Source: Polytrichum commune
Lineage: Eukaryota > Streptophyta > Polytrichopsida > Polytrichales > Polytrichaceae
DNA: 64,000 nucleotides
Assembly (NCBI GenBank): GCA_950295325.1
Contig: OX485806.1
Coordinates: 39,244,001-39,308,000 of the forward strand
Reading direction: 5' to 3'
The notes under the pieces are model-generated. The model was not told the DNA's origin, did no database searches, and saw only the letters and a program-made list of their open reading frames with translations. This document shows positions 36,754 to 60,911 of the stretch, piece after piece (positions within the stretch are counted from its first letter, which is position 1; each line of letters starts with the position of its first letter). A program made the translations under genes and the position numbers.

Positions 36754-36793
36754 AAGATTAAAAATAACACTATATTCGGTAATTGGAGACTTT
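36754..36793 (+). repeat. Left terminal inverted repeat plus target-site duplication
   Basis: 36754-36761 is AAGATTAA (TSD copy). 36762-36793 is the terminus, containing AACACTATATTCGG and TAATTGGAGACTTT. It pairs in inverted orientation with 53136-53167. Confidence 0.72.
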
Positions 36794-37075: not shown

Positions 37076-37965
37076 CTATACGTTCGGATCACGATTACGA
37101 CTCACTACTTTTGCTTTTGCAATACTATTATTAGCATTTACGGCCGTTTCACGTTCTTTTGCTTTCATGGCCTCCATGGCTCTAAAGATCTCGGGTCCGC
37201 GGCTGTAACCTTGTTTATTTGTCGACCCCGAATATGTGTCATTTGCCCATATTTGCCGACCCCCTACCGAATAAGTGGAATACGAATGCGTTTGGGAAAC
37301 CGAACGTCTTGCACTCTTCCGTAGGGCCAAACAACGATCAGACTCGCAAGAAGCAGTCTTCAGTGTTCGCCTATCCAATGACGAAGTCGAGGATGAACGG
37401 CCCACATTCATGTGTATTGGGGTCTGAAACAATGAACATAAATACATATAATGACGTGGGTTAGTATAAGTTACGGATGGAAGTCCGAAAAACCCAAGAA
37501 TATGAAATCCACTAATGCACGGAAATCATGAAGGAAAAACTTGAGAATGCCAATAATTGGGCACCTTGGCTTGCGGGGCGGTGGTTTGAGCTTCTGCGAC
37601 ATCAAGGGGGGCCACAAGCACAACAGGGACGCTCGTAAACGCCGGGACATCAATTTGGGGTTCATCCATACAAAGGCGTCTGGTCGACCGCAGGTTTCGA
37701 ACGTGCTTCTCATTGCGGAGGGGAGATGGAGATGGAGATGGAGCGTAATTGAGTTTTGCAACCTTTGGAGGAGGGCTATCGACAACTCCGTCTTCAAACC
37801 CCGAGTCTTTGGAGTAATCAATAGCAGAGGCGGCATCGACGGCTGAAAATTGAAATAGTGAAGGCATTGAAATGTCGGTCACACCGATGGAAGGGGAGCT
37901 GGGGCCCGGTTTAGATGCACACATGCCATGGACGAGACTTTGGGATGCTTGGTGAGGCAACTAAG
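37076..37965 (-). CDS. Uncharacterised two-exon coding segment near the left end of the large transposon
   Basis: Two open stretches on the minus strand look like exons. The first starts after an acceptor-like CTTAG near 37966 and runs through a Ser/Pro-rich, KVAK-containing sequence to a donor-like AAG/GTGCCC near 37565. The second starts after TTTCAG near 37424 and stops at 37076 with a basic, Ser/Arg-rich sequence. Low-complexity composition, no recognisable domain. They may be 3' exons of a gene or a separate small protein of the element. Confidence 0.35.
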
Positions 37966-38048: not shown

Positions 38049-38816
38049 TCATATTAATTTATTGAGTTTGGCATAGCCGTACAACCTCCTAAATTCCTCA
38101 TCTCTTGGGCCTAGAGGCCTATTGCCAATGGGGTTGGAGAGGACAAAATCCGGGACACTTCCGGGGTGATAGGCAAGCCTCCTAATGTAGGGTCCTAGTT
38201 CATTCTCTAGAAAGTTGTCATTTCTATCACTCTCCCAAGGATCCGGGAATATGCAACTGCCCGGGGGATTGAGAATACTCTTTGCCGGGCTGTCGTCAAT
38301 GAGGAGCGTGTTCTCCGGGGTGGGCCAACAACCGTGGGGCACCCCCTCCAACATAGGGACGCCCACCCAAAGGTTCTTCCTCAGTACCTTTAGGAATTGA
38401 GGCCCTCGGCCTCCTCCGACCTTGGGTACAATGTTGCCATTACGGTCATAAAGGTCATCGCAGTGTTCTTGACCGAGAAGCAAGCATGGCATTGCGAGTT
38501 CTCGGAAAAGGAAACCGACGATGGCCTTCGTGTTGTCCATGAGCATAGAGCTCCAGATGATGACATGGGCCAAACCAAGGACATCACGAAGGAAGCACCT
38601 CAACCCCGGCCGGGCCCGTACAACCTTCTTGTTAATGAGAGTATCAAACTGTCCGCCGTAATCCATGTCTTGTGGACTACGGAAGGGACCCTTCGACGCA
38701 CTATTGGAGATATGCATGGAATGACAAAGCACCCCATTGAGGTCAAATATTATGAACGGTTTCCTCATGGGCCGGCTTGGTCTTTCAGCGGGGTTGCGAC
38801 ATATCTCCGACGGACC
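38049..38816 (-). CDS. FCP1/NLI-interacting-factor-like HAD phosphatase, active-site variant
   Basis: An exon begins after an acceptor (CATCACAG) at 38816 and is open to the stop at 38049. The ATG at 38768 gives 239 residues. HAD motif I is IIFDLNGVLC: the nucleophile Asp (residue 9) is present, but the second position of D-x-D is Asn (residue 11). Motif II is VIIWSS with a Ser; motif III is LLIDDSPAKS near residue 155, with both acidic residues. FCP1-like enzymes remove phosphate from Ser/Thr, classically in the RNA polymerase II tail; the D-to-N change makes catalysis uncertain, although I recall plant relatives with DLNG. The frame is open upstream of the ATG, so earlier exons may exist. 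It lies inside the large transposon, on the same strand as the ParB/methylase-like gene. Confidence 0.7.
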   Translation of the reverse strand, partial: GPSEICRNPAERPSRPMRKPFIIFDLNGVLCHSMHISNSASKGPFRSPQDMDYGGQFDTLINKKVVRARPGLRCFLRDVLGLAHVIIWSSMLMDNTKAIVGFLFRELAMPCLLLGQEHCDDLYDRNGNIVPKVGGGRGPQFLKVLRKNLWVGVPMLEGVPHGCWPTPENTLLIDDSPAKSILNPPGSCIFPDPWESDRNDNFLENELGPYIRRLAYHPGSVPDFVLSNPIGNRPLGPRDEEFRRLYGYAKLNKLI

Positions 38817-39218
38817 CTGTGATGGAAAATACTATCTAGGTGAATGGTACTACCCATGAAAACCAATTGACAAGCATGGACAAACTCAACAAACAAATAT
38901 AAGGCAAAAAGAATACGAATACGCAATTCAAAAAATTTGTATTAATGTGATTGGTTTAATACATTTCGCGAATAATTTACATTGTCACAAAAGGTCTCCC
39001 CTAAAACTAACTGAATCTATGCTGGCAAAATTGCATCCACCCGCCGGGCGAAGTCGAGCATCGAACTTGACAATATGCACACGCCACGAAGTTGGCAGAC
39101 AAGGAAGTTTCGGACGCAGGTCCGTAATGTGGGAGGCAAGCTCAAAGGTGGATTATCTCTTCAGCGGAGAGGTCCTCGCCAGCAGTGCCTCCCTCACCAG
39201 GCCCCATCGTGGGCACAG

Positions 39219-39240
39219 GTTCCGGACGCGCGTCCGCAAA
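39219..39240. repeat. Dyad copy inside a coding frame
   Basis: Arms GTTCCGGACG and CGTCCGCAAA with centre CG, lying in the C-terminal part of the ParB/methylase-like gene, where the minus strand encodes NFADARPEP. A weaker copy (TTTCGGACGCAGGTCCGTAA) is at 39108-39127, just past the stop. Confidence 0.6.
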
Positions 39241-40576
39241 ATTGTGCAAGCTATCCTCCACCACCAAGGCGCCTCCAGCTGCTTGCGACCCCTGGGTATC
39301 GACATGAGGTTGATCTTCATCTGTGGTGTCTTGGCTGCCCCGCATATGTTCATCCTCTTGGCTGCCAATGGTTGTGATGTCTTCAATGGCGCCTTTCTCG
39401 TGAGCACCTGCCGTATAACGTGCAGGTCTCTCCTCCTCTCGTACGCTATGAGAGGAGGGCTCTGGGGTGGCGGCAACCTGGGGAGAGGGCGGGACATACA
39501 AGGCGGGGGCTGGATAGGTATGCTCTGGTATGTACACCGTATGGCTACTAGACGGAGGCCGCATGAGAGTGGGAGGCATCGACATGCCGGCTTCGAGAGC
39601 TGCATACATTACTGGGGGTTTTGCTTGCAAGCTCTGCATGAGGCTCATAAATTGTTGGCTCTGGGCCAAGAATTGTTGATTTTGAGCCATGAGATCAGCG
39701 TGCCTTCGAGCAGACTCCAACCTAGCCTTCTCCATCTCAACTTGGATGGCGGCCATCTTTCTGGCGTGCTCCTCGTTAGCTTCTCGAAGCCGTTGGTCAA
39801 GCTGTTCCTTCATTCTCTTCTCCAGTTTCTCGTCCAATTCGGCCACAGACATTGGCTCTTTCTTCACCTTGCCAGGTTCAGAAGGCAAGGCAGAGAGGGC
39901 ATTGTACATCCTAACCTCATCCTCGTCTTCATAACTCGGAGAGTTCCAAGACGGCGCCTTTAGGATACTCGTTGTAAGGAGTCTTCTTCCTCTGTCGACG
40001 ACTCTCACGGTATGAGGCGATATCCGGCCTCAAAATCAACTCCAGCACATCTCTACCCTCCATAGGTGGTAGCTTTGCCTGTTCGGATCCCCCTCCAGAT
40101 GAGGCTGTGCATCCGGCTTCTGTCGCAACGTCCACATCCTTCTCTACCATAAGCCCAGCAGCACGCGATGGACCCGCAGTGGAAGGAAACCCAACTCGAG
40201 AAGTGGGAGTCCCAAAGGGAGAGGAAATAGGGGTAGGATGGACCCTTATTGGAGTGAAGTCTTCCTGCGCCCCCTCTGTATCCATGTGGTCTTCGCCCAA
40301 GACAAATTGATGATGATGAACAGGATCACGAACAAGGCCGGGCACGTGATCTTCTCTGGCTGGCTGCTCTCCTGGGGAGACGGGCTCTTGGTCTCCGTCA
40401 CTGTCCCACTCCGTCGCAGGAGTTCCCTCTTCTCTTGAGGCAAGAGGTACCACAGGATGGGGGGTAAAGACATCGATGATGTCTTCAATATCCATTTTGG
40501 AGGCAAGAGCCCTATGAGTATTCGCCTCATCCATGTCGCGAGCCTCCACAAACGAATTTACCTGCAACCCAAGCAT

Positions 40577-40820
40577 CTGCACCAAAACAAGGAAATTATA
40601 GTCATTCCATTGTTGCGAGCAAGTATGAGGACAAATATAATCATGAAGCACTGCAATTTACAGACGCGCGGCCGTAAATTTGCACTGCATATGTGGTGGA
40701 CAATGTTACGGACGCGCGGCCGTAAAATTGCACTGCATATGTGGTGGGCAATGTTACGGACACACGTCCGTAAATTTCAATTCAGATGGAGCATGGAAAG
40801 AGGTGCATACAAGTACTTAC
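40577..40820 (-). other. Intron of the ParB/methylase-like gene containing three dyads
   Basis: The donor reads GTAAGTACTT and the acceptor GGTGCAG. Both exon edges are in phase 0, so the flanking frames join cleanly across a conserved-looking motif. Three dyad copies sit in the intron; two are within a 65-bp tandem duplication (containing GCACTGCATATGTGGTGG). Confidence 0.75.
40657..40774. repeat. Three 22-bp dyads in an intron
   Basis: Copies at 40657-40678, 40705-40726 and 40753-40774. Consensus arms TTTACGGACG and CGTCCGTAAA; centres CG, CG and CA. Small arm changes (ACAGACG, CGGCCG, GGACA) show moderate decay. Confidence 0.85.
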
Positions 40821-42214
40821 CAATGCCGCGTAAACAAATTTGGTGCCTCCGAAGACGTTGTAGACTGTTTCACTCATCACAGTCACAGCCTTCAAGACTC
40901 CAATATAAAAATCCATTCGGAGCTCGTACGCCGGGTAGAGTGCATACATAGTCTCCGCGACAAGCTCCTTTGGGTGTGGTGGTGGCAATGAGTATACTTT
41001 CTTGAACACGTTCTGCGCTTTGATAGGCATCCGCCCACTTGGTGAAGACTTGTGTGTCAAGAAATAAAGTGCCAAAGCCCCGACCTGCTTCGCCCCTCTT
41101 GCCTCTTCAATAACACTGATCCCTTCCGTCTTCGCGGGGATGTATGTGCTGTGGTAAAGATCGTACTGGAGGTTCATCGTCGATGTGTAAAGCTGGACGA
41201 CCGACGCGGACCTCTCTTGATCTACGATCCAGAGCCACATATTTGGCTCGAAGAGGGCAGGCGACCGATAGCTCTTGAAGGCCTTGAAGAAGTTGTCATA
41301 GAAAGCGGTCCCGCTAGCGTTTTGTCTCCAAGATCCGGGAAATGCACGGAAATCAAAGAGTGCGAACGGACAACCCCGGGGGTCATCTCTCACAGAGGCT
41401 CTTGAAGCATGTGTGTCCCATGTGCCAAACTTCAAGGCCATTGTAACAGTGCAGAATCTTGCGACCCCTCCGAATTTTGCTTTCTTTTTTTTGTCAAGGA
41501 AATGGACGTACAACGTCGTCTCTCTTTCGTCGATAGACCCTTTCTTCTTGTTCCTCCTAGATCTTTGGGCTAGGAAGGGAGATGCGCCTCTTATCAATGA
41601 TCGCATGGAGACCCCATTGATGTGATACTCCTCCTTGAGCGTCCTCCAGTTTACCCACATTATCTCCCCATCTGTATTAGTGAGGTTGTGGGAGGGCAGC
41701 AGCTTGCTTATCTCCCTTATAGCCATGGTCTTCTTCTTCCTGTATTCGCACCATTCCTTAATGTGGTATGTAGAAGGCTTCATGTGCTTCGGTCGCTTCA
41801 GGAAGATTTTAGAGTAGGGCAGTGTCCTCCTCGGAGTCTCCAACAGGATGTGTTCTGCCGCTCTGTAAAGCTCGGAGTCGAGCAATCCTTGGAGGGGACG
41901 AAAGAACTCTCTCAGGATAGGTGGCACTTTAACCTTTAAGTCGTTCTTGTACATGTTTTCAGCATCCGGGTTGATAAGGTCTCCATTGTTGTGAGCATCG
42001 AAAAGGCGCAACCAAATTGCCCATGTCTCTTCTGTGGCAGTGATGAGCTTAAGTTCCCCCTTCAACTCCTGCACCGTCTTCATGCCGCTCGTCTTCATGT
42101 CAATGCTGGAGAACTTTGTCAAGATCGCATTGTTGAATGTTTGCACAGCCATGCATTTCAAGAAGTCAGCAGAGTTTAAATTGAAGGAATTAAAGAATGG
42201 GAAGGAGGAAGAGG

Positions 42215-42236
42215 TTTATGAACGCGCGTTCGTAAA
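42215..42236. repeat. 22-bp dyad in the ParB exon 1/exon 2 intron
   Basis: Arms TTTATGAACG and CGTTCGTAAA, centre CG. The GG to GA change in the left arm is mirrored by CC to TC in the right arm, so pairing is kept. Confidence 0.8.
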
Positions 42237-43594
42237 AATATACAGAGACATACCTGCCATTTGGGATTCTTGATGACTGCATTTTCCCTCTCTTTTGGGG
42301 GACAATCGTGCTCCACCCACAAGGTCCTTCCAGCCACGATGTTGGCAGCCCATGAAGCCTCGAACTGCCTCACTTTATTCCCTTGGTTCATGAAGGCAGA
42401 TATTGCGATGAGCTGGTTCGAGTCTTTGGAATGGACGACAAATACCTTCCAGTATTGGATTGTCTCTTTCAAAGGACTCTTCCACTCATCGTCCTCGAGG
42501 AGAGCTTTTGCAGCCATCACGCTATGTTGGCCGTCGACTATGTAGAACTCTCCATCTTTGAAGATTGGCCAATTTTGCGCTGTGACTTCAACCACAGGAT
42601 CTTTTGGTGTCACACATATCGTTTGCCTATCAAACTTGGGGTTGTTCATAATGTTATTCATTTGCCACCACACCCCGCTCTCTTCTTTGGCACGAGTATT
42701 CATACTCTCCGTGCCCTTGTGGCATTTGTATACATCCACATCAAACGTGAAATACCTTCCAAGTGGTCAGCAGCCCTTTGTCTTCTCGTCGAACTCTTGG
42801 AAAATCTTTGTGGATAGTTCCGCGTCCGGGCGTTGTCCTTTCTTGAGAAGTGGGGCGACTGTAAGAGTAGAACTCACATCTGGACCCTCTGTTAGCCCAG
42901 ACGACTCCATCTGTGAGTGGGAGCGTTTACTGGCCTGCTTGCTCCCTCTTGATGCTCCACTCTGTGAGGGCCTGGAGGCTTCTGGCACGTGTTTAGGAAC
43001 ACGTTTAGGTCATTCAGGAACTTGTTTTTTCTCCTTTCCTTTCTTCGCTTCCAGTAAGGCCCCATTTACTCTTGTCACATTGCTCAAGAGACGACCAAGC
43101 CATTTACCCGTCCAGGGTGCATTGCAAGCATAGTCAGTGAATTCATTCTGTAGATTGAAGCAAGACGCATCTGGGCTGGCATTTTCACATTCATTTTTGT
43201 TGAACGGATGGTACAACTCGTACAAAATGATTGTGATCCTATCATTTTTCTTTTCAAGGTCAATGACAACATAATCGCCTTAGGCTACCGCACACTCTAT
43301 TGTCCAGCTTTTAACCTTCATGCACTTCTCGGATTCATGTATATCTGCTTTTATTTGATAGGCAAATCTAAGGACAAATATATCATTTTCATATTTTTCT
43401 ACAATAACTGTCCAGTTATCTACGATGTCTTCGCGTGGCTTGTAATGGTCGTTGTGGCTTATATCTTTAATTGCTTTTGGAAGCGGAGGATGGACAAGCT
43501 CTGCGAATATATCAATAGCGGGTCTTTTTGTAGATTCCATCTGCAAATGTAAAATATACAAGTCAGTATTAAGGTCTAGGGATGCAGAGCCTAT

Positions 43595-44147
43595 CTTACG
43601 AACGCGCGGTCGTAAACCTTTGCGTACCCTTTCTTATAGAATGGGGTTAAGTATTATTATATAGTACATATTAAGTTTACGGACGGACGTCCGTAAAACT
43701 TGATATATCTTATAAAAAGAAATCTCATTTATGATATATGTGCAGAGTTTACGGACGCGCGTCCGTAAACTCTGCACATATATCATCCAAAAGTCTCTAT
43801 TTCTATATTCCATGAATATAATATGTTTTTTATAATAATATAGCCCTAATTTACAGACGTGCGTCCGTAAATTTTTGGAAAATAAATAAATTTTTGTTGT
43901 GTAGAACTTGTATATTTTGTAGAACTTATTTTGAAAACCCATGACATGTATTATACTCTGAGATTTTCATAGTTTTCTCTGCCTAGTTCACGGACGCGCG
44001 TCCGTAAACTCTGCACATTTGTCATGTATTTGATTTAGTATACTTTTATATCTCAAGTTTACGGACGTGCGTCCGTAAACTTCTCATTCATGTTTTTAAA
44101 TAGTTCTTTTTAAATATATCTACAATTTACGGACGTGCGTCCGTAAA
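43595..44147. repeat. Cluster of seven 22-bp dyads upstream of the ParB/methylase-like gene
   Basis: Copies start at 43595, 43676, 43748, 43850, 43987, 44058 and 44126. Centres in order: CG, GA, CG, TG, CG, TG, TG. They lie just 5' of the first recognisable exon, which begins directly at a splice acceptor, so they are in a leader intron or promoter. Spacing is irregular (68-137 bp) and the sequences between them are unrelated. Confidence 0.88.
43731..43786. repeat. 56-bp perfect palindrome around one dyad
   Basis: The dyad at 43748-43769 is extended on each side by ATGATATATGTGCAGAG and its exact reverse complement. All 28 bases of each half pair, so the strand could extrude as a long hairpin. 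The other dyads have only partial flanking complementarity. Confidence 0.9.
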
Positions 44148-44254
44148 CTGTTCACACCTAGTGCGATGCATATTCCCAGGGTCCGTCAACTTCAGGCCAT
44201 TTTTTAATTACTCTGAATTTAATTAATTTGCTCAATTAATGTGTTTCTGTATAT

Positions 44255-44275
44255 TGTTCCGAAATTTTCGGAACA
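44255..44275. repeat. 21-bp palindrome of a different sequence
   Basis: Arms TGTTCCGAAA and TTTCGGAACA around a single T, about 110 bp beyond the dyad cluster. Arm length matches the dyads but the sequence does not. Confidence 0.7.
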
Positions 44276-47158
44276 GCTTCTTTGTTGCATTCCATTCATG
44301 TGCAATGTTCATCTTAACTTGGAATGCAACATGGATTTGCACTCCAAATTAGACTGAATCGTGTGTTGCATTGCAATAGCAGATTCTACACTCCAAACTA
44401 AGAAGAATGTTCCATTTCAATTTGCAATGTACTAGAAACACTTACCTCTGTACAATGTTTGCTTCTAAACCACAGCTCCAGCTAGGAGAGACTGCAAAAT
44501 AACAATAAATTTGAAGTTAGAAACCTCTGATAATGCAATGTGCACATTCAAGAATCAACTAAACTGTGTGTTGCTCCTCAAATGCATCAAACCCACAAAA
44601 AAACCCCTACTACAAAGATTGCACTGGATTGAACATGGACATCACATTGAAGTGAACAAAGCAAAACACATGATTTCTTAGAACTAGGAAAAAGTGAATT
44701 CAAGTGAAGTGAAGACAATTACAAACTGAAAGGAGGAGCACTCTGAAACAACTGAAAATACTCCAACCCTAAAACCCTTGCAACAACTGAAACTACTCCA
44801 TTAATGTCCTAATGAGACTGCAAGCAAAAAACTACTCAATTTCTGATGTTACTTGCAATTGTGAGTGCAACAAAACATTGCATGCTTACACAATACTCAC
44901 AATCCTCCTCTTGTGCATCAATACATAAACTCACATCACCTAATTAGCACCTGGAACAGCACATCTTTCAAAGAGGGAAAGAAAAAAGCACCTGCCTGGA
45001 GCTCCTGGCGCTCTTATGGAACTAAGAGCAAGGAGGAGGACAAACAACAAGAAGGAGGAGGAGGAGAAGGAGGACCAGCAAGGGAGAAGGACCAACAATA
45101 GTAGCAAGGGAGAAGGAGAAGGAGAAGGAGAAGGAGAAGAAGGAGCAGCAGCAAGGGAGAAGGAGGAGCAACAAAAGTAGCAAGGGAGAAGGAGGAGAAT
45201 ACTCTGGAGCAACAAGGGCGACCAGCAAGGGCGAGGAGCAAGCGCGAGGAGCAAAGGAGCGATGGTGGGCGAGGAGGAAAGGAGCGAAAGGAGCGAAATG
45301 AGAAAAAAGGAGCGAAGAGCAAGGGAGTGTATCGAAACCCTAAACCCTAAACGTCGCATCCACTCCCTACCTAGATGTCCCATCACCCCGCGCCCAAAGG
45401 CCACATGTAACCCTTACGTGGCATATGTCTATTGGTTTTTTTTGTGATTGCTAGAGTCCACCCTCGATAAATGTTACACTTCCACATGTTAACTCATAAT
45501 TGTATTTGTTAACAAATTCGTACTCCTCTCATATTGCTAACTAGAATGTAAACTTTGTTACATGTTAAGAATAATTTATTCCCCTCTTTGTTAATTTGCC
45601 ACTTATAAATGTTAACCTACGAACTACATCCAATATTGTGAGATGACATCCATTACATTGAGTCACAACCTTTCAAAGTGGCAAAAGTCACCAAATTTGA
45701 CTTTTGTGATCAAATTATTAATATGGGTTATATTGTGATTGATACACATATTTTATATTTGATAATTTTACAAAACTCTCCCTCCATAATTGTAATGAAT
45801 CAAATTTGTTAAGCATTCAAAAAGCTCCCTTTATAGTTGTTACAATGTTAACTCACAATAAATGTAAGGAAAATTATATTCCAGAGCATAACATTTATAG
45901 AGGATGGATTGTATGTGGTTTGAGTCAAAAAACGAATACCAAAAACAATTGTTGACCAAAAATAAAGGAATCTCAATGCTCTAATTAAATAACATCAATA
46001 ATAAAAAAGACAAAGCATTTTGTAACTCCAAACAATCAGTGAAACTAAATTATACCATTTCTAGTGTAGCAGGTATGGAGGGGACTTTATATTTTGAGAA
46101 TAGTAATAATATTGAATATAAAGTATGTCTTCTTGATTAAGTTAAGTATAATATTTTTTCCACAAAGGTGGGATTCAAATGCAATTGGGACAATAATATA
46201 CCCATTGGCCAAAAATTCAATTAACCCTAAACCCCTACACCCTTATGAATCCCTCAATTATCGCAATAATTTGTGAAAGGGGATTTTCAACCTAAATTAT
46301 ACTATCAATAGCAACTTGGGGACTTTATTGAAGTTGGACACTTGGGATGCTTTGATGTGAATATCATTATTAATGATATTTAAATTAAGCATGTTTGAAA
46401 CACAATTAACAAAACCAAACATCGAGATAATATGGGTTAAGATCAAATGCTTATAATATCCTAAACAACGTTAGGGGTTAATTCAATCCCTCTGCACATA
46501 TTATGTCTAAGCTTGTATTAGAACAAAAGGAATGGGTAGGTGTTGAATTTACATCCCTCTTGTCCGTTAAACAACCTTCAGGATTCATGCAATCCTTCCA
46601 AACCTAGGCATGAGCTTGTATTATCGCCTATAAGTAGTAGCAAATTGTTGTTTATATTGGAGTTTTGTTTCCATGGCGACATGTATGGTTGTGTTAAGTA
46701 TTCGATTATAGAATACCAATATATGATGTTCAAAACCTATCTTCAAAAGTAAAGGTTTAAATCAAATGGATAAATATGACTTAGAACATAACTTTCATGA
46801 TCTTAAATGTTTTGAAGGCTTAATTGTTTTCATATTGTATCCCATCAAAGAATAACAAGTCTCGGCTAAATCTTGTACTTGCCTCTAAGGGGTGGATTTT
46901 ACCCAGGCAAACATAGATTAAAAAAATGAAAGGTAAGGTTACGCAACCCAAGTACCTTTTTCCTTAGCCAAATTAAGACCACATATCGGATTGCCATTCA
47001 CAATTTGATAAATCTTTGTTCTATGTCACCTACTTTTTCACCACTTACCATGTCTTCAAGAATAATTTGTGAACATAAATTTGCTTGACTTTTGAAATCT
47101 TTATGGTTTTGTTTTAGAGAATTTTAAGCCTTGACATGAGTCGGGAGTCGTTTATACG

Positions 47159-47187
47159 GTTTAGGGTTTAGGGTTTAGGGTTAAGGG
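47159..47187. repeat. Interstitial telomere-like repeat (TTTAGGG)n
   Basis: Three TTTAGGG units followed by a variant GTTAAGGG. A degenerate relative is near 47430. Confidence 0.8.
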
Positions 47188-48563
47188 TATCCCCCTTGTG
47201 TCACCGACTTAATATTGGTTGCCTTATTACTATTTGGATACCCTACCCTCCCATTCTGTCCATTATATTTTATGGGTTAATAGTATTACGTAGAACAACA
47301 ATTGGTATAATTGTTTGCTTGCTTGGTTTGAATTACTTTCCAGTTAAGCCTTGACATGTATCAGGAGTTGTTCCGTTAACCATGCTTGCATCTCTATATC
47401 CACATGTTTGTTTAGGTTTGGGTGGTTATAGGGTTTAGGGTTGAGGGTAATAATGTTACTTCGAGCAACAATTGGTATTGTTTGAGTATTAATTAATGTA
47501 GGTAATGTACATGAGGTACTAAAATATGTTTTTCCTCACGTATAGTACATGAAGAAGGCTAGTATAATTAGTTTTTTTGAAGTAAATGTTGATGTACGGA
47601 AGGGGCCCCTAAGGTTTAGAGAGAAAATTGATAATATTGAATTTAATTAAACCTATGTTACCTAGGACAATAGATGTGCTACTATCATGGCCTTATGGTA
47701 ATCAAAGTTTCTGTATCAGATATGAATACAATTATGTATAGGTGTGTATAGGTGGGTAAATTAAAAATGTTGGATGGTTAGGTGGTGGCCAATGTAATTA
47801 TAATATTAAATGCAAGATGAGAGGAGATAGCATGATATTATGGTCAATACCATTACATTGTATGCAAAACAATAAAGTAGTTGCTGATTTAATTTTGATT
47901 ACATGTATTTTTATACTCCATGTACTATTGTTGTTGTTGTGGTTGATTTTTCACACGATTGTATAATTTTTTGTCTACGTTTTTTAAAATGTACTCTTCA
48001 TATTAGGTACTCCAATATTATTGCTCCAATAAACCACCTCTCAACAATGTTTATTGCTCATATAATATTAGCCAATCTACTTTGTTGTATACCACAAATA
48101 CATAGATGCCTTTTTCTTTGTCATTATGTGGACTCATGGTCTATGCATGTTGTCCACATGAATACACATTCCATTGTAAGGCTGGCACACGGAATGTAGT
48201 AATGCTAGGTTTGTATTTATAGGACATAGTTGGTGGCTGGTATCCTATGTTGGAAAACGGATCCAAGGGAAAGCGATCAGTACTTAAGGGGACACCCCCC
48301 CACCGTCGGGACTCTTTTTGCATCTCAGCTCTGGGTTGCGCTCCTTGGACCCTTGTAGTGTGCTCCTGCTACAGATTTTGTGCAGGTAAAGATCCTATTG
48401 CATGGACCTATTATACACTAAACCCCAAGCCCTGAACCCATTAGGGTAGAGAGTTTGTATTTGGGTTGCACTCTGCGGATCGTTGTAGTGTGCTGGATTT
48501 TTATTTCGGACAGTTATCATTTCTGGTGCAATGTTCCTATTTTAACGCCGCAAATCACGGAGG

Positions 48564-48921
48564 TTTACGGACGCGCGTCCGTAAACCCTTAATCATATTG
48601 GTTCTTTGAACCTTTATTTGTTTGATCCAATACTCATGTACGTTGAGGTTTACGGACGCGCGTCCGTAAACCTCCATACCTTTGGTGCCATATGTCACCT
48701 ACACCACGTGTCGTGTCGAGTCTGTATGTCACCTACACCACGTGTCTTGTCGTGTCTGTATGTCACCTAAACCACGTATCGTGTCGAGTACCACAATGCG
48801 AATATATTGCCATGGAAGTTTACGGACGCGCGTCCGTAAAACGTGAACCCCTTTTCGCGTTATACATCGTATCTAGGCTAGTACAGAGGTCCACAGAGGT
48901 TTACGGACGCGCGTCCGTAAA
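48564..48921. repeat. Four near-perfect 22-bp dyads upstream of the transposase gene
   Basis: Copies at 48564-48585, 48649-48670, 48819-48840 and 48900-48921. All four have the full arms TTTACGGACG and CGTCCGTAAA with centre CG; several keep an outer AGG/CCT extension. Confidence 0.92.
48691..48790. repeat. 34-bp tandem repeat, three units
   Basis: Units start TATGTCACCTA and contain ACCACGTGTC and GTGTCGAGT; period exactly 34 bp. It lies between two dyads. Confidence 0.85.
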
Positions 48922-49185
48922 CCTGGAAACCTTTGTTGCCATGATGTTGTCCATGTGCCATGTAGGGGATTGCACAGAGACTGTACGGTCATGAAGGGTT
49001 GGGAGATCGCATCCCTTAGCCTACATCACCCTATGTATCATAGTATAATATTTGATATTGATAGAACATACTAGGAAGCGCGTATGATAACCTCTTCAAA
49101 TTTCATGTGTCGTCAGGCCTGCGTATACATGGCCGTGTTGCCAGGACCTCTTGCTTGCCTGAACCTCCATGTCTAGGACTGCATT

Positions 49186-49397
49186 TTTACGGACGCGCGT
49201 CCGTATACCTATGTTGTGGTTTAGCATGATACTACACTATGTGCACGAGCCGATTTACGGATGCGCGTCCATAAACCAGTGGTGTTTTGGTTGTCATCAC
49301 CTTTCCGCTGACTATGAACATATAAATGTATCCGTATGCGCGTGTGATTGCGCTGCTAATGTTGTTACATGGAGGTATACGGACGCACGTTCGTATA
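49186..49397. repeat. Three diverged dyads next to the transposase start
   Basis: Copies at 49186-49207 (right arm ending GTATA), 49254-49275 (arms TTTACGGATG and CGTCCATAAA) and 49376-49397 (arms TATACGGACG and CGTTCGTATA, centre CA). The last copy has a changed outer base in both arms, preserving pairing. Confidence 0.82.
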
Positions 49398-49541
49398 CCA
49401 ATGTGTCTTTGTTTCCAAGCCATGATATCAACTATTGTTCACATTGTGTTTCATTGACAATAATAAGCGTTAGGGTTATCCATGACATTTATTGAATGGA
49501 ATATTTTGACATACTCTTCATTGGGCTTTCTTGTAGTGGCC

Positions 49542-52500
49542 ATGGATTCCAACGTCGGTGATAGTGGGGTTGAATTTTTTTCGGAAGCGTCAAGCTATGA
49601 TAGCGAGTTTGAAGTTGTCGTGGAACAAGATACTACAATTGGTGTCGCCAATGTAGAGGATGAATTCCTTCCACCATGTGAGGGTTATTCGCGGGAGCAG
49701 TGGATTGATCTTGATGTTGTCCTAGTCAATGGATGTGGCGTCCCCGTGGCCGATGGTGTTTGTCGGAACTCGAATCCTACGGATTGTATTGATGCAAATC
49801 CCCTTGGGGAAGAAGATGTGGGGGTGTGCATTTTGAATTCCTTACATCCGTTGGAAGTGCCTTATGGTTGGAGATTCTCTCTTCGTCGATGGCCGTTGCG
49901 CAGTGTTCTTCATGATGGTGTCAGCTTGTGGAATCATTCCCGCCGTTTTGATCAAATGCAATCGGCTTTGTCCTCCACAACGCGCCCTAGAATAGGTCGG
50001 CGTAAATATGATTCCTTTCGTTTGCCTCGTGAACCCACGCAACGTCGTCGAGATCAAACATTGGGAGATGCATCTATTAGGTCCGTAGCAACAAAGGATT
50101 GTTGTGCAAAGAGATGTTGCCAACTATTTCCCCGTGACAAGATCAAATTTTTGAGACAAGAGATGTGGCTCGCGGACTTTCGTATGCGATCTGCAAAGAA
50201 ACTTGAAGTCCATCGCAACATGCACCTTGATGTCGAAGGTCGTAAGGTTGTGACCTTGGAAAATGTAGAGATATGTTGCAAGGCATGGTACATTATACAT
50301 GCAGTTTCAAAGGCAGATTTTTATAGGTTCCGGAACTACTCGATGCAAGGACGCCGTTCTCGGTTCCATGGCAACTCTGGCACAAAGAAGCCCAGGGAGG
50401 CAACACTCCAAGCGGCCGCAACACTATCAACCATCATTATGCCATTGGCAGATGCGATGCCACACAAGACGCGGACTCTGCCGTCAGGGGAAAAGGTTGT
50501 TCAGATGGTTTTGCCTACAGGGACAAAATGGAAGAACATACTTATGGATGTTAATGAAGTTGGCGAAAAGGCTGGATGTGGGCCGATTTCGTTGTCAAAA
50601 TTAAGTGTGATCAAGAATCAACAATTCGCAGAATACATTACGAAGAGACCTGGGGATAAGTTTGCCAGGTGTTCTGCTTGTGAGAAATATAAAGGCCTTC
50701 GAGATGCACATCCCATTGGGACTGAGTCCCACAACCGACATCAACTGAAATACATTGAACATGTCAACAACCAGGAGGCACACCATCAAGACTATTACAA
50801 GAATCGCACATTATCGATAATGAGGCCGAATGAGGTTTTGACAATCATTCATGACAAAATGGACCATGCAAAGACGGCGTGCCCTTGTTATGCGCGGAAA
50901 ATAAAGGCTACAGATGGATATTTCAAGCTTCCAATATCTGTCACAGGTTTCTTGGTTTTCACATTTATTTTTTGCGCGCCCACATACTCATTGTTAAGAT
51001 TTACGGATGTACGTCCGTAAGTGTACATTTTTTTACTTGCTTGGGGAAATTTTTGAATTTCATTCATATATACGATTTGTGTGGCTAAATGCAGGTATGA
51101 TCGCACATGGTCATGTGGACGTGAAATATGCACATTATGGCTTGGATTTCTATCCTGGCGACGCCAATCATACCGTAGGGTCTTTTGCAAAACTTCTACG
51201 AGATCTTGAGAGTCCACCCACATCATCCTCTCGTGATTTTTTTGTTGGATGTGGAACAACACCGATTTATAAGGCTGTGCTAGAGGGGAAGGAGGTTTGC
51301 CTATCTTCATTGCAAGAACCGCCTGAACAACCCGTTTTTGCTAAACCTTTGCCTCCAACTATACACGTGCAACTTGATAATTGTGCCAAGGACAACAAAT
51401 GTCGATACGTATTTTGTTTTTGGTCATTGCTCGTAGCCAAGGGCATTTTCAAAGAAGTGTTTGTGTCTTTTTTGATGGTTGGCCACACGCACGATGACAT
51501 TGACACTTCATTCGGACGTTGGAGTATGAAGTTGCACGAGGAGGATTTTCCCACAATTCCTCTTCTCATGAAATCGTACATGGATTTGGATAATGTGCCA
51601 GTCATCCCGCATTTGATTGAAGAAGTGTCCAATTTCAAATCGTTTATCAAACCATTAATTCTTAAGGGAGGTGACCGCTTAGTGGGCCATACCAAGGCTC
51701 AACAATTCCGATTCTATATGCGTGATGATGGTCTGCCGGCCATGCAATTCAAAGTTTTGTGTACCTCCCCGAATTGGGGCCCAGAGGAAGGGATACTCGT
51801 ATGGCGCCAAAACGAAGATGGCAAATGTATGCTACCTGATGGGGAGCCGAAGCCCTACAAACCCAACCCCATGAGGAATGGACTAGAAATCATCAAAGGT
51901 ATATCTGGATTCATCGAGTACTGGAAAGATTTGTGCGAGGAAGACATCACAAGACGTGTTCGGGATACCCACGAACCATTGATTGCGTATTGGGATCGCA
52001 TCCGCTCAGCGTTGCTAGCACCCGAAGACGATAGACCATCATGTTTGACACAAGGTTTTTGGCCACTAAGCCGAGTGACAATCGTGGAATCTGAGGCCAT
52101 GTTCTTCAACAATGGGGACGTCCGTGAAGAGTTCGCGGCGGACGACCATTATGTTGGCCCTGCTCGTAATCGCCCGGCTCCATCATTTCGTGTGGCTATT
52201 GATTGCTACGAAGGTTATATGGTCCTCGTACGTCCTGGAGATGAGGAACATCCTAAACCGATTTGGTTGGTGAAAGCATTGTCATCACCAAATTTTGTTC
52301 CAACTAACCCAAATTTTCGTCAAATTGAGGTGGAATATTGCCGTCCAAACACCAAAGATCAAAATGTGCTCCGCACATATTTAGGGTGGGACACGAAAAA
52401 AGGTTTCAAATGGACAATGGACTCAGCATACGAACCAATATGGATAAATACGGATACCATACTTTGTGCTTGGAAACCACGCAAAGGTTCCAAAACTGAA

Positions 52501-52617
52501 ACAATGACCATCCCCCAAAAACATATAGATTTTGCCAAAGACAACTTGGCACGTATTGTTGCTGCAGAAAACAATGTCGAGAATGGAAATGAAGCAGAAG
52601 ATGAAGATGGTGAATGA
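49542..52617 (+). CDS. DDE-like transposase of the large transposon (DUF7869-like), apparently intact
   Basis: Two exons, 49542-50946 and 51095-52617, joined in phase 1 by a 148-nt intron (GTTTCT...GCAG), give about 975 residues. The start is the ATG directly after an acceptor-like TTCTTGTAG; the related gene at 57633 begins the same way. An acidic N-terminus is followed by a Cys-rich KDCCAKRCC near 185, C-x2-C (CSACEKYKG) near 376, then three conserved acidic blocks: KMDHAKT near 438, QLDNCAKDNK near 562 and VGHTHDDIDTSFGRWS near 598. These resemble the RNase-H-fold catalytic core of the eukaryotic family annotated as DUF7869, as I remember it. Its 3' end lies 550 bp from the right TIR. Neither exon contains a stop. 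Transposase function is inferred from the motifs, the TIR context and the second copy. Confidence 0.72.
51000..51021. repeat. Dyad in the transposase intron
   Basis: Arms TTTACGGATG and CGTCCGTAAG with centre TA, inside intron 50947-51094. The matching intron of the second element (56052-56189) has no clear dyad. Confidence 0.75.
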
Positions 52618-52734
52618 TATTGACGTAGGTTTGGACCAAAGATATTTGAATGTGTATTGGTTTTTCATAAAATATATGACATTGGGGTCGAATACTATAT
52701 TAGACACATTTTATAGCAATTTTGTAGATTACAA

Positions 52735-52925
52735 TTATATTGCATGGATGCATTGATTTACGGATGTGGAATCCAAATGTTTTTTATGTTTGTGTTATTA
52801 CGGATGTGGACCCTAAACTATATAATTATATTGCATGGATGCATTGATTTACGGATGTGGAATCCAAATGTTTTTTATGTCTGTGTTTTTACGGATGTGG
52901 ACCCTAAACTATATAATTATATTGC
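52735..52925. repeat. 91-bp subterminal tandem repeat with dyad half-sites
   Basis: Two copies (TGCATGGATG at 52741 and 52832) plus a partial third start. Each unit has two half-sites, TTTACGGATGTGGA and TTACGGATGTGGAC, so four half-arms lie in the last 450 bp before the right TIR. Confidence 0.85.
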
Positions 52926-53135
52926 AGATGCTAATTTGCAATTTTGTGTCATTGGAATCTTGTGTTGGCATAGTTTTGATTATCAACTGAATAATTACTA
53001 TATTTAGAAACATATATTCATCACATATGGATCTTTAAAACATTATGTTGCCATTGTTTCCCATGTTCCCCATGTTCGCTACGTTCACAATATTCGCATC
53101 CGAAACTACGGGTCCAATTTATTTTGAGACTTTCC

Positions 53136-53175
53136 AAAGTCTCCAATTAACGAATATAGTGTTAAATAAGATTAA
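53136..53175 (-). repeat. Right terminal inverted repeat plus target-site duplication
   Basis: 53136-53167 read on the minus strand gives the same terminus as the left end, with mismatches only at positions 2, 3 and one inner G/T. 53168-53175 is AAGATTAA. Just inside, 53126-53143 forms a perfect hairpin with arms GAGACTTT and AAAGTCTC and a 2-nt centre. Confidence 0.72.
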
Positions 53176-54032: not shown

Positions 54033-54082
54033 TAACACTATATTCGTTAAATTGAGATTTTTTCTAGTCTCAAATTAATATA
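54033..54082 (+). repeat. Terminus of the second transposon with internal hairpin
   Basis: Begins TAACACTATATTCGTTAA like the large transposon's TIR. TTGAGA and TCTCAA then form a short stem, followed by ATTAATATATGGA. A similar run recurs at about 60824-60872. Confidence 0.65.
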
Positions 54083-54564
54083 TGGATCAAACAACATTCC
54101 GTGTTCCGAAACTATATTGAGAACAATCTCAAATATATTATATGTTCTAATATCCCAAATCTATGATGTGTGGACATAAGCACATATGGTAGAGCACTCA
54201 ACACCAACTTCATCAACAAAAACACTTTGGGTAGAGCACTCCAAACTAGTTTCACCCAAAAAACATATAAAATGATTTCTATTATTAGCATGGTCAATAA
54301 AATATAAACATTGCAACATACAAAGTGCATGTAATAAATGCATATTTCTTCAATGGACAATTTAGTCCCAAACTTAATAAAAAAATGAACTTCACATTTG
54401 TATTGAAATATAGTAAACGGATATTCATCCAACCCCAAACAATATAGCATTCGCAAGTTCTACCCAAACTTTGCCCCAATTTTGAAGAACACACATATGA
54501 ATAATATATATTCGTAGAATTACATATTACACTATAATCATGCTAACACAATCCTACCAACTTC

Positions 54565-57500
54565 TCATTCAACGTGGGTTGCTTCTTCTGCGATCCGAGC
54601 AAGGTTGTCTTTTGCAAAAGTTATGTACTTTTGAGGGATGGACACTGATCCACTATGATTTTTCCGTGGTTTCCATGCTATGAATATGGAATCTATATCT
54701 ACCCAAGAAGGACTGTGCTCAGAATCCACCTTCCACCAAAAGTGTTGGTTTGTATCCCAGCCTGTATAATGCCGAACAACATCTTCATTCCGTGTTGTCG
54801 GTTGGTAGTACTCTACTTGTATTTGTCGAAAATGAGGGCTGGAAGTTACAAAATTTGGTTTGGACAAAGCTTTTGCCACCCACACTGGCTTTGCATATGT
54901 CTCATCTCCAGGATGCAAAATGAGCATATAACCTTCATGACAATCCATTGCAATGCGGAAAGATGGTGGGGGACGACTACTAGCAGCCCCACGTAATGGT
55001 CGTCCACATCAAACTCCTCTCGAACCTCTCCATTTCCCAAAAGACTAGCCTCCGAAGGTTGTACATTGACACGTGTTTGTGGCCAAAACCCATGCCTTTA
55101 AGTAAGGGGTGTATTTTGATGAAGGTTTGCCAAAACGCCACGAACACGTGTCCAATATTGTATCCAACTTCTGCAACGAAGCCAACACGATCCACCAACA
55201 TCCGCTACCCTCAAACTCTCCCAATATTGTATGAAGTCTGATATGCCTTTACCAATATCCTCCAAATTCTTCATTGGTATTGGTTTGCAAGGCTTAGGCT
55301 CTCCGTCTGGCAACATCGTCCTTCCCTCCCCATCAACACGCCATACAAGGAGACCCTCCGGCGAGCTCCAGTCTTGTGACGTGCACAACAACTTGTATTG
55401 CATGGCCGGGACACCATCGTCACGCACGTAGAACCGAAATTGTTGTGCCTTCGTATGCCCGATCAATCGGTGAGCTCCACTTCGAATATACGGTTCTATA
55501 AATGCCTTGAAGTCGGGAACCTTCCTCGATCATATGGGGGATGACGGGAATGTTCTCCAAATCCATGTACGACTGCATCAACAATGGGATTGTTGGAAAA
55601 TCCTCCTCGCGCAACTTCATGCTCCACCGCCCAAAAGATGCATCAATATCATCGTGCGTGTGGCCTACCAATAGAAAGGACACAAAAACCTCTTTGAAAA
55701 TGGCTTTCGCAACCAACAACGACCAAATTGCAAAAACATATCTACTTTTATTGTCCTTGGCACAATTGTCCAATTGGACACGCAGAGTTTGGGGCAAATT
55801 TTTGGCAATCACATCCTCACTTGGTGGCTCCGGCAACGAGTGCAGGCATACATCGCTTCCATCCAAGACCGCTTCATATAGAGGTGTTGATCCCGAGTTT
55901 TCAAATAACAATCTTGATGAATAGGACGACGGTTTCTCCAAATCATGTAAAAGCTTTGAAAATGACCCTATCGCGTGGTTTGAATCCGCCGGATACAAAT
56001 CAAGAGCATAATGAGCATACTTAACATCACCATGTCTATGTGCAATCATTCCTGCAATGCCAACCCAATGGTTTAATATTCAACTATAATACAAAAAAAT
56101 TCACATGGTATACATCTATGGCCCCAAGTACAAACCTAAAAGTACAAAATTGTGTTTAGGTAATGCAATGCAATTGTTTTCAAAATCACCTGTAACCGAT
56201 ACAGGAAGCTTAAAAAAGCCGTCCGTGGTTTTTATTCGATTTGCAAAACATGGTGAGGTTGTTTTGGCATGGTCCATTTTGTCATGGATGATTGTAAGGA
56301 CCTCCAAAGGCCTAGAGATGGACAAAGCTCTATTTGTGTAGTAATCATTACGATGTGCCTCTTGCATGTTTACATGCTTGAAATAGTTCATTTGATGTGT
56401 TGCATAGGACTCTGTCCCCATCGTGTGTGCATCTCGAAGGCGTTTCAACTTCTTGCATTTGGAACAACGGACAAATTTGTCGCCTCGTCTTTTTGTGATG
56501 TATTCGCTAAAGTTTGATTTTTTTATTGCACTTAGTTTTGACAACGAAATTGGGTCCAACCCAGCCTTCTCGCCAACTGCATTTACGTCCAACAATATGT
56601 CTTTCCATTTCGTGTCTGTAGGAAGAACCTTCTCCACAACCTTTTCACCGGTTGCGAGTGTGCATGTTTTGTGCAGCATTGCATCGGCAAGGGGGACAAT
56701 GATGGTTGCCAGAGTGGATGTTGCTTGTCTCGTTGCTTCCTTTGGTTTCTTTAAGCCCGTGTTCCTATGGTGACGGGAACGGCGGCCTTCCTTGGCATAA
56801 GCGGCTTGTCTATAAAATTCCGCTTTTGACACACCGTGAATGGTGTACCATGCCGTACAACACACGTCTATGCTCTAAAGGGTTATGACCTTGCGACCCA
56901 CTCCGTTCACATGTATCGCCCTATGGACATCAAGTTTTTTGGTGGATCTTAGACGGAAATTTCCAAGCCACATTTCCTCGCAAATGGCCTTCAATTTATC
57001 CCTTGGGAACAATTGGCAACAACGACGTACACAACAATCCTTTGTGGCAACTTCTCTAATAGACTCCTCACAGAGCAACCTTTGACGTTTACACTCATTT
57101 GCAGACGGAGTAGGACGTGCCAATGTATTGTACTTCCGTAGGCTTTTGCATGGCCGAATATTTGCTTGGAGCTCCTGTTGGATTTGGATGTGTCGTCGCT
57201 CATGGTTATGCAAGCTAACCCCCTCAATTGTCACATTCTTCAACAGCCACCTTCGCAACGAGAACCTATGAGTTGGATTCACTTCGGAATGTATGAGTGA
57301 TTCCAATATAACAACTCCAACGTCCTCGGTGCCAAGGGGATTTTCATCAATGCAATCTTGTGGATGTGTGTTACGACAAATACCCTCCGCCACAGCAACT
57401 CCACTGTCATTAACAAGTACCACATCCAAATTCACCCATGAAGTTCGTGAAAGCCCCGCACATTCCACAATGGGGCAAAAAGGGGCAGATGGCGAAGGAC

Positions 57501-57633
57501 TCCCCAAATGACCTTCATCTGCACTGTCATCAAAACTATCCTCCCCGACAATGTCTAGCTCATCCCCAGACGAAGATTGGGTGTTGCCCATGTCTTCAGA
57601 GAAGGGATCCCCTCTTGCACCAACTCCCTCCAT
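54565..57633 (-). pseudogene. Transposase pseudogene of the second element
   Basis: Clearly homologous to the 49542-52617 gene over its length: N-terminal block (SWVNLDVVLVNDSG), KDCCVRRCC, the C-x2-C block CSKCKK, KMDHAKTT, QLDNCAKDNK and VGHTHDDIDASFGRWS are all present in order. The intron position is conserved (56189-56052, phase 1). It is broken by an in-frame TAG at 56875, where the intact copy has Glu, and by frame changes near 55510-55460 and 55100-54980. The start ATG 57633 follows an acceptor-like GTGTGTAG, as in the intact gene. Not expected to make a full protein. Confidence 0.8.
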
Positions 57634-57833
57634 TGCGCCTACACACATGCACATGAAACCTCAACAAACATGGACACAATGTAAGGGTCCAAAAGAATCA
57701 AATATTGAAAAATGCAAGACATCATGATGAATGGGGACACCAAGGATAACGACATTTGTAACACAACTACAATGTGAACTCCCAATACTGTGCGCAAGTC
57801 CAAAAAAAGTGCCAGAAAATATTTTGGGAGGGG

Positions 57834-58248
57834 GTTTGGGTCGACCGACCTAAACCCTATGGCACCATGGATTGAGGGCCATCCACAGCTTGCCCATGGG
57901 ATGGGGTCGGGTTTCGGTCGACCGACTCAAAGCTTGTACAATGATGGGTTCAGGGCCATTCAGAATTCGATCACGCTGTGGGAAAAAGTTTGGGTCGACC
58001 GAACCAAACCTTCTCATGGTCAAACTACAGCCGCCCAAGTTGGGGTAGAGGTTTGGGTCGACCGACCCAAACTTTCTCAGGATAAATCCACCCACACTGG
58101 GTAGGGGTTTGGGTCGGTCGATCCAAACATTGGATGTGATGTGTTATGGTTCGTACTCTGTCCGTCCAAACCTTCTGAATATATTGGTTAAGGGCCATTA
58201 ACAATTCGTTGACGGTCTGCAAAAAAGTTTGGGTCGACCGACCCAAAC
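57834..58248. repeat. Six dispersed dyads of the second family
   Basis: Copies at 57834-57855, 57911-57932, 57988-58009, 58051-58072, 58107-58128 and 58227-58248. Consensus arms GTTTGGGTCG and CGACCCAAAC with centre AC. The 58107 copy has centre GT, i.e. the opposite orientation. All lie upstream of the transposase pseudogene. Confidence 0.9.
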
Positions 58249-58290
58249 CTTCTGAAAGGTCATACTGAAACCGCCCACACTGGGGGAGGG

Positions 58291-58620
58291 GTTTGGGTCG
58301 ACTGACCCAAACCTCATAAGGGTCAGACTAAAACCCTAAATACTAGTGGAGGGGTTTGGGTCGACCGATCCAAACCTCATAAAGGTCAGACTAAAACCCT
58401 AAACACTAGTGGAGGGGTTTGGGTCGACCGACCCAAACCTCATAAGGGTCAGACTAAAACCCTAAACACTAGTGGAGGGGTTTGGGTCGACCGACCCAAA
58501 CCTCATAAGGGTCAGACAAAAATCCTAAACACTAGTGCAGGGGTTTGGGTCGACCGACCCAAACCTCATAAGGGTCAGACTCAAAACCCCCCAACACTAG
58601 TGGAAAGGTTTAGGTCGCCC
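58291..58620. repeat. 63-bp tandem array, each unit with one dyad
   Basis: Dyads start at 58291, 58354, 58417, 58480 and 58543, exactly 63 bp apart. Between them is a shared text with CTCATAAGGGTCAGACTAAA and CCCTAAACACTAGTGGAGG. A decayed half-dyad follows near 58606. Recent tandem amplification of a single dyad unit. Confidence 0.93.
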
Positions 58621-59470
58621 AATTACACCACAAAATCCGGCGTATAATGCGGCGGATATTGCGAGGTGTGTTGAATTTGAGCTCATTGCAAAATTCACGG
58701 TGGGCTTGCATGCTGTGGATAGGTGCTCATGAACTTGCATGCTATGGATAAGTGCTCATGAACGGCAGCATGCACGAACCTTGAAGTACAGCTCCGACTA
58801 AGAGTTCTCTCTACGAATTCAGGAGTGGGAGAAGAGAAAAAAAAAACCGACTTTTGGGGGGTGCGCCCCTTTATACTATCCACCTCCGCTTCCCCGACTT
58901 CCTCATTGGATGCATTTCCCGCCTTGTTCTCTTGCAGAGGTTATTTCAAACCTCCTGACATAATTCCCCGTTTTCTGTTTATTGTAGAAAATGCGCATCT
59001 ATCAATGCCCCTCTGATACCCCAGCTGTCATACGACTTAGTCTATGATGTTTTATTTTTATTTTTTTTGTGGATATGACATACGCCATTGGGAGGAAGGG
59101 TGGCGGCCACATTAATTTTTTCAAGTGTCATGACGGTATATTTTAACCAATATGTAGACCCAAACACAACTCCATTCAATGTTTTCAAGTGTAAACCTAT
59201 TTAGGTGGGGTTTGGGCCATTTGGAGGCTACAATTATGAGAGAGTTTCCAAGGCTTGAGGCCATTGTCATGATGAATAAAATTATTTATTTGTCTCCCTT
59301 AAACCCTAAACCCTAGAATATTACTCTATTATCTCGCATGCAAGTTTGTGGCAATGACGAACATATGTGGACGTTGTTAAGGGGATACTAACTACCAATG
59401 TTCCTTTTTAGTTCAATCTTTTAATGTTACTTGAATCCATCCTCAAGTTCACTTCAAGTTTACTAATGTG
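58621..59470. other. No supportable gene
   Basis: Short frames only. Includes CCCTAAA units at 59299-59313. Confidence 0.45.
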
Positions 59471-59471
59471 T

Positions 59472-60310: not shown

Positions 60311-60819
60311 AAGTCACGATCTAAGGGATGTACTTAAAACTTGAGCATGTTAGCATTTTGAAATAATGATCATGCATTTCAAAACCCTTACAAAATGCAG
60401 TTGGGGAAGGTATTCATTTAATAGGCTCCACACTCAAGTATTCTAAATTGTTCCACATGTTGGGGGGTGTGGGTAATCTTTTTTTTTCATTCAATATCGT
60501 GTGAGTTGTTGGCATCATTGGTAAAGTCTAAATGTCAATGATTACATCGTTAAATATCACGCAATTATATGGTTTTTCTAACATGCTCAAACAAAAGAGA
60601 AACCAATGCCTTCAATGATTTTGGAAAATTTAGGGTATGGTGTCATGTAAGTAGGGGTTAAGTATTAGTTTAGCATAAAGTTTTGTTGTAAGAATGCATT
60701 GGCTATATAAATGGTTAGTTTTGTAGAATAACACATTTTATGTAGCACCTTAGGGTACTCCAGAGTTCTTTGAAAAAACTAATAAGGGTTTAGAGCAGCA
60801 TCCGGCAAGAACCTAAACC

Positions 60820-60911
60820 CTAAAATTCGCTAATTTGAGATTTTCTCTTCTCTCAAATTAATATATGGACCACAACAACATAGTGTAATGTTTGGGTCGT
60901 CCTACCTAAAC
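60820..60911 (+). mobile_element. Third terminus-like sequence with one dyad
   Basis: 60826-60872 repeats the 54050-54082 terminus (ATTCG-TAATTTGAGATTTT, TCTCAAATTAATATATGGA) in the same orientation. It is followed at 60890-60911 by a dyad of the second family with arms GTTTGGGTCG and CTACCTAAAC. Either a truncated third element or a rearranged end of the second. Confidence 0.5.

Follow-up and report, generated by a model that had tools for sequence, protein, structure and literature searches.

Repeated 22-bp dyads in the predicted introns of a moss transposon: candidate sites for an element-encoded DNA-binding protein

Why should a transposon carry many copies of one short palindromic sequence inside its own genes? 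The question is raised by a stretch of 64,000 nucleotides from the moss Polytrichum commune (assembly GCA_950295325.1, contig OX485806.1, positions 39,244,001 to 39,308,000 of the forward strand; hereafter the window, in whose coordinates positions are given). It contains element 1, a 16.4-kb transposon with terminal inverted repeats (TIRs; AACACTATATTCG) and a 4-bp target site duplication (TSD). The left TIR lies on the plus strand at 36766-36793 with the TSD AAAT at 36762-36765 just before it, and the right TIR on the minus strand at 53136-53163 with AAAT at 53164-53167 just after it. Two divergent genes lie between them, a transposase-like gene (TP, 49541-52617, plus strand) and ORF2 (39270-43540, minus strand). 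A preliminary description of this DNA reported 22-bp dyads within the element and proposed a binding or recombination site maintained by it, an interpretation that is partly supported by the present analysis. The dyads are best read as sites of an element-encoded dimeric DNA-binding protein, with ORF2 as the best candidate and with an anti-silencing role like that of the VANC proteins of Arabidopsis VANDAL transposons; the probability of this reading is put at roughly 0.6.

The claim of nineteen or more dyads confined to the DNA between the TIRs is confirmed: TTTACGGACGNNCGTCCGTAAA is matched 19 times at up to three mismatches, from 39219 to 51021 and always between the TIRs, with 0 matches in 100 dinucleotide shuffles of the window. 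When up to six mismatches are allowed, 22 sites are found between 37470 and 51021, all of them at four mismatches or fewer, and no site of this family (family A) lies outside element 1 in the 64-kb window. Seven dyads precede TP, four with perfect arms (48564-48585, 48649-48670, 48819-48840, 48900-48921) and one each with one (49186-49207), two (49254-49275) and three mismatches (49376-49397). The last of these has its TATACG..CGTATA ends altered on both sides, a form that is identical in the element copies E05 and E09 and nearly the same in E13. Another seven precede ORF2, at 43595-43616 (four mismatches), 43676-43697, 43748-43769, 43850-43871 and 43987-44008 (one mismatch each in the last two), 44058-44079 and 44126-44147 (perfect arms in the remaining four). 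The centre of the dyad at 43676 is GA, which no other perfect-arm copy found in the genome has.

Within the genes, one dyad with two mismatches lies in the TP intron (51000-51021), one with three mismatches lies past the ORF2 donor at 42253 (42215-42236), and three with two mismatches each lie in the ORF2 intron 40820-40577 (40657-40678, 40705-40726, 40753-40774). At the 3' end of ORF2, a copy with three mismatches (39219-39240) stands in an open frame, yet 3' of the landmark part of exon 3, and is a putative coding copy. Two weak sites with four mismatches follow, one 3' of ORF2 (39107-39128) and one at 37470-37491, which six other elements have at the same place, 1800-1821 bp 3' of the exon-3 landmark.

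It had been stated that the dyads are no simple tandem repeat. This holds for the leader copies of the window, which show no regular tandem arrangement, but not for the three intronic copies, which belong to a 48-bp tandem array at 40654-40774 (2.5 copies, 90% matches), nor for other element copies with regular dyad spacings of 95, 135, 97 or 53 bp. The dyad at 43748 lies within a 56-bp perfect palindrome (43731-43786), the right flank text of which reappears beside the dyad at 43987; this recurrence hints that gene conversion or template switching takes place at dyads.

A genome-wide motif search, of the kind that had been proposed, covered 407.8 Mb in 64 contigs at up to one mismatch. It yielded 1,778 sites of family A (TTTACGGACG), 5,060 of a family B (TTTACGAACG) and 11,977 of a family E2 (GTTTGGGTCG), and 0 sites for the reversed pattern of any of the three. 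The three families have one architecture in common, a 10-bp arm, a 2-bp centre and a second 10-bp arm. Among the 1,778 A sites, 50 perfect ones were listed in coordinate order; they lie on one contig at seven places, each a copy of element 1 or, in one case, an internally deleted one (L019), so that 50/50 are inside element copies. In L019, transposase residues 3-135 are followed directly by residues 853-995, and 10 dyads remain at up to three mismatches. The description of conserved arms around a variable centre fits the listed B and E2 sites, in which the centre varies widely beside perfect arms, and fits family A less well, in which 74 perfect-arm copies from eight elements have mostly CG (56), followed by TG (10), CA (7) and TC (1). 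A recombination site finds no positive support, as the centre is variable and the tandem arrays repeat the dyads along with the text that flanks them.

Placement was counted for 157 dyads at up to four mismatches in seven elements of family A (window, E05, E07, E09, E11, E13, E17), and 140 of them are in predicted introns. Introns of the 5' untranslated region (5'UTR), predicted from splice signals alone, hold 107 dyads in 15,693 bp and internal introns 33 in 3,784 bp. Eleven more lie 3' of the exon-3 landmark of ORF2, at a distance of no more than 200 bp, and six belong to one conserved weak site on the left side. Dyads are absent from the mapped exon intervals (48,031 bp), from the intergenic DNA at the centre of the elements (32,755 bp) and from the DNA that separates the transposase from the right end (5,154 bp). 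In this count, the edge of E17 was set by hand since its ORF2 donor was not found, and its right end is the end of the stretch, the right TIR not having been found; exon 3 of E05 is partial, and its second transposase exon interval includes an insertion. At up to three mismatches, mapped exons are overlapped by 0/40 dyads in one E2 element and by 0/30 in one B element, the latter without a mapped transposase exon. The leaders of both genes, in which dyads had been described, are predicted 5'UTR introns. In the window these comprise 48386-49536 for TP (plus strand, seven dyads; donor kept in 8/8 elements, acceptor in 7/8) and 43541-44445 for ORF2 (minus strand, seven dyads; donor kept in 7/8, acceptor in 8/8).

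The intron-only placement is the main reason for keeping alive a different account, in which the dyads act in pre-mRNA introns as hairpins with 9-bp stems and serve splicing or export via an element-encoded RNA-binding protein. The concentration in predicted introns and the empty central intergenic DNA agree with it, and so does the covariation of stem positions. On the sense strand of the eight A elements, one-sided dyad changes include A>G and T>C at 14 to 1, a direction that preserves G-U pairs; this excess may be due to shared ancestry. C>T and G>A, however, are equally common (26 vs 25), though only C>T would preserve pairing; the loop-opening positions 10 and 13 are conserved like the others (20/21 each in the window), and a single leader, in E22, holds 17 copies. 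Hairpins acting in RNA are regarded as doubtful.

Another account compares the dyads to the TnpA sites of maize En/Spm, which are subterminal and clustered next to the TIRs. Here the transposase would bind the repeats, which would aid synapsis and excision. The dyads are indeed tied to the element and lineage-specific, and like the TnpA sites they are element-specific repeated sites with a possible link to methylation control, provided that they are bound at all. Unlike TnpA sites, they avoid the element ends: the 5,154 bp from TP to the right end are empty, the region from the left TIR to the 3' region of ORF2 has one weak site per element (four mismatches, ~0.7 kb from the TIR), and in the window both TIRs are over 2 kb away from every site at up to two mismatches. 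A subterminal function is improbable on these grounds.

When introns were aligned between element pairs, 4/7 pairs showed less divergence in dyads than in spacers, namely WIN-E09, with the window copy (3.7 vs 8.7%), WIN-E05 (5.2 vs 11.6%), E05-E09 (5.3 vs 9.2%) and E11-E13 (13.6 vs 21.0%), in a comparison whose pairs share members and are hence not independent, and in which slow copies are favoured since dyads are recognised by similarity. At CpG positions of WIN-E09, the values are 3.0 for dyads and 12.8% for spacers. In the ORF2 5'UTR intron of the window, the dyads keep 30/35 possible CpGs, and the 752 bp of spacer hold 6. Among 18 substitutions at CpG positions, counted over 21 copies in the window, 16 are C>T or G>A, so the sites seem to have been methylated at times. 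The two arms also change symmetrically, with 23 two-sided changes in 74 distinct dyads compared to a mean of 6.87 and a maximum of 16 after a shuffle that leaves dyad relatedness in place. The suggestion that the site is maintained by the element is borne out by the listed perfect sites, the slower divergence in four pairs, the symmetric change and the separate arm sequences of the lineages described below.

These data also bear on the view that the dyads are a functionless palindromic satellite that slippage and gene conversion have multiplied. Such spread would agree with the tandem arrays, whose units are of many kinds, with the 56-bp perfect palindrome around one copy and with the lack of slower dyad change in the three youngest pairs. 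Against it stand the slower change in the other four pairs, chiefly at CpG, the 33 kb of non-coding intergenic DNA without dyads, the presence of one architecture in three arm sequences, and the occurrence of dyads in introns of ORF2 relatives with exons only ~43% identical. A mere satellite is very improbable.

These relatives show that dyad type follows the ORF2 lineage. ORF2 relatives in the protein database often continue beyond the splice donor with a tail of translated intron. With four motif types, a dyad fits within two letters in 20/21 intron 1 tails of at least seven residues and in 27/36 intron 2 tails (one of them by the E2 motif at two mismatches). When the motif types were limited to three and the junction was defined more strictly, 20/21 and 17/25 tails fit; the respective controls gave 0.09 and 0.07 for shuffled tails and 2/21 and 1/25 for residues 1-200 of these proteins. 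Tails that fit only A (12, the variant TTTACGGCCG included) belong to relatives with 63-100% identity and those that fit only B (13) to relatives with 43-54%, measured against P0175 for intron 1 and against the window ORF for intron 2; the remaining dyad tails are ambiguous. A recurring peptide, SF[SG]R[TP]PE[TS], in the intron tails of P0171, P0172 and P0173 fits a candidate fourth dyad, GTTTCGGGCGNNCGCCCGAAAC, which is not significant alone.

The split between A and B tails predicts that genomic B dyads belong to ORF2 genes of the B lineage. Element E26, chosen solely for its B dyads, has ORF2 exons that are 95% (P0199) and 84% (P0149) identical to B-lineage relatives, and it holds 25 B dyads and no A dyads at up to one mismatch; three E2 dyads in the same stretch are outside its TIR. 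Element E22, which carries 36 perfect copies of the E2 dyad, lacks A dyads at up to four mismatches and B dyads at up to one; its ORF2 shares 75% identity with the outgroup protein P0206, 66% with the outgroup protein P0172 and ~35% with the A type. At up to four mismatches, none of the eight A elements contains an E2 dyad. Each of the three element lineages examined has its own main arm sequence, the purity of the B and E2 lineages being that of the one element read for each. Captured sites of a host transcription factor, which the intronic, enhancer-like position might suggest, are the least probable explanation, given that one nucleus contains three arm sequences, that each of these predominates in its own lineage, that E2 is not mixed with A or B in the elements examined, A elements having a few B-type copies, and that all 50 listed perfect A sites lie in elements.

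For the preferred reading, a mechanism can be outlined. The dyad would be recognised as a DNA site by a protein of the transposon that is sequence-specific and probably a homodimer, and that would read the two 10-bp half-sites and leave the 2-bp centre between them unread. The dyads would be packed in introns, whose sequence is free to accommodate them, and would increase there by tandem duplication. Site and reader may have diverged together, so that each lineage would mark mainly its own copies. As with VANC, the likely purpose would be to draw the reader along the element's own genes and to keep or reset an unsilenced state. We infer binding, the role of ORF2 as reader and the anti-silencing effect from the pattern of the sites and the predicted protein.

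From models of its exon-2 ORF and of related proteins, ORF2 is predicted to consist of a PH-like domain, a ParB-type domain with the ParB N-terminal (Srx-type) fold and a DNA-methyltransferase fold lacking DPPY. In the model, in which a helix-turn-helix that would read the palindromes was looked for, residues 389-425 and 429-443 have a pLDDT (the model's confidence score) under 50. The Pfam search gave no ParB family match, and the best match of any ORF2 member has an E value of 0.012. The DPPY motif is found in 0/42 ORF2 sequences, which mostly have DFR instead and differ in this from beta-class DNA N6-adenine methyltransferases such as M.BceJIV and CcrM. Because DPPY is absent, ORF2 is probably without methylation activity. 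A protein of this kind would be a concrete candidate reader. A more specific version, in which a ParB-type protein joined to a dead methyltransferase loads at parS-like intronic palindromes, spreads and excludes silencing while the lineages in one moss nucleus keep separate pairs of site and protein, is rather unlikely. It would differ from bacterial ParB-parS, Noc-NBS and KorB-operator systems in belonging to a eukaryotic transposon and in the attachment of the ParB-type domain to a methyltransferase-like domain.

Several observations weigh against protein binding with a VANC-like effect. Bacterial ParB has an arginine-rich GERR-type CTP box, and in ORF2 this arginine box is replaced by DGQHS in 25/27 sequences (DGQHN and GGQHS once each). 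Each element has a central intergenic region of 3.9-6.6 kb without dyads, unlike the VANC21 distribution. In the three youngest pairs, dyads do not change more slowly than spacers (E07-E13 1.8 vs 1.4%, E13-E15 0.9 vs 0.2%, E07-E15 1.8 vs 1.2%), and the CpG decay within dyads implies that any protection is incomplete. The eight A elements contain 6 B-type dyads at up to one mismatch (one of them perfect, in E13) beside 105 of the A type. No dyad fits 9/36 intron 2 tails and 1/21 intron 1 tails, which is weak evidence as the tails are short. Finally, a dyad type matched to the ORF2 lineage is also matched to the element lineage, and such specificity is equally expected for any gene of the element, the transposase included.

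To our knowledge, sequence-specific anti-silencing by a transposon is known only from the VANDAL elements of Arabidopsis, which are Mutator-like. The VANDAL reports describe a VANC protein of VANDAL21 located on YAGTATTAY motifs in introns, intergenic and terminal non-coding DNA (PMC5735166), a 9-base sequence arrayed in one orientation (PMC5735166). The same sources describe VANC targets as often tandem repeats that differ between families (PMC5735166, PMC10398659), and a VANC companion protein as binding the motif and inducing loss of methylation (PMC5735166, PMC10398659). As far as VANDAL21 is described there, the moss element resembles it in having an element-borne motif that is concentrated in introns and non-coding parts, is increased by tandem repeats, and differs between related families in one genome, here matched to the ORF2 lineage. 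It differs in that its site is a 22-bp dyad and that the dyads are intronic, with none in central intergenic DNA. The transposase of the moss element is of the DUF7869 type, not a Mutator-like (MULE) one, and the candidate reader has predicted ParB-type and methyltransferase folds, in a system whose anti-silencing effect is proposed by analogy. If the reading is true, an independent case in a moss and in another type of transposon would make the marking of own introns a recurrent escape from host control, and the three dyad versions coexisting in one genome would be natural protein/DNA pairs for the co-evolution of recognition.

A neighbouring inverted related element (54034-58600) has its own dyad, GTTTGGGTCGNNCGACCCAAAC, of which 12 copies at up to three mismatches lie at 57834-60911. 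Eleven are in the leader of the second transposase (57834-58564), and one with two mismatches (60890-60911) is ~45 bp inside a third TIR-like end at 60817, in which 7/28 letters differ. The arm of GTTTGGGTCGNNCGACCCAAAC agrees with the family A arm in 6/10 letters.

As to the remaining features of element 1, further copies with both TIRs in the examined stretch have 4-bp TSDs as well (E07 CACT, E11 TAAA, E13 ATGG). TP consists of exon 1 (49541-50946), an intron (50947-51094) and exon 2 (51095-52617), and Pfam identifies DUF7869 (PF25273, E 5e-41) as the sole family up to E 1; named relatives occur in the mosses Ceratodon and Physcomitrium. On its 3' side, a 91-bp tandem repeat (52733-52926, 2.1 copies) contains half-dyads TTTACGGATGTGG and no full dyads. 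The minus-strand ORF2 exons are 43540-42254, ~42150-40821 and from ~40576 downward. In the window copy, exon 1 has three in-frame stops (43282, 43012, 42769) where database relatives are intact, and in the intron 42150-42253, which holds the dyad at 42215, a good donor is present while a simple scan gave no acceptor. By-eye assignment places kinase and NBS-LRR type ORFs and a long gypsy-type polyprotein of a long terminal repeat element at 19054-23852 and 25859-32098 of the window; kinase-NBS-LRR genes occur in mosses. The element also carries a NIF/FCP1-like phosphatase gene (38049-38768), which is present in the read elements of all three dyad lineages, with 41% identity to the window copy in E22 (14672-15379) and 64% in E26 (15795-16505).

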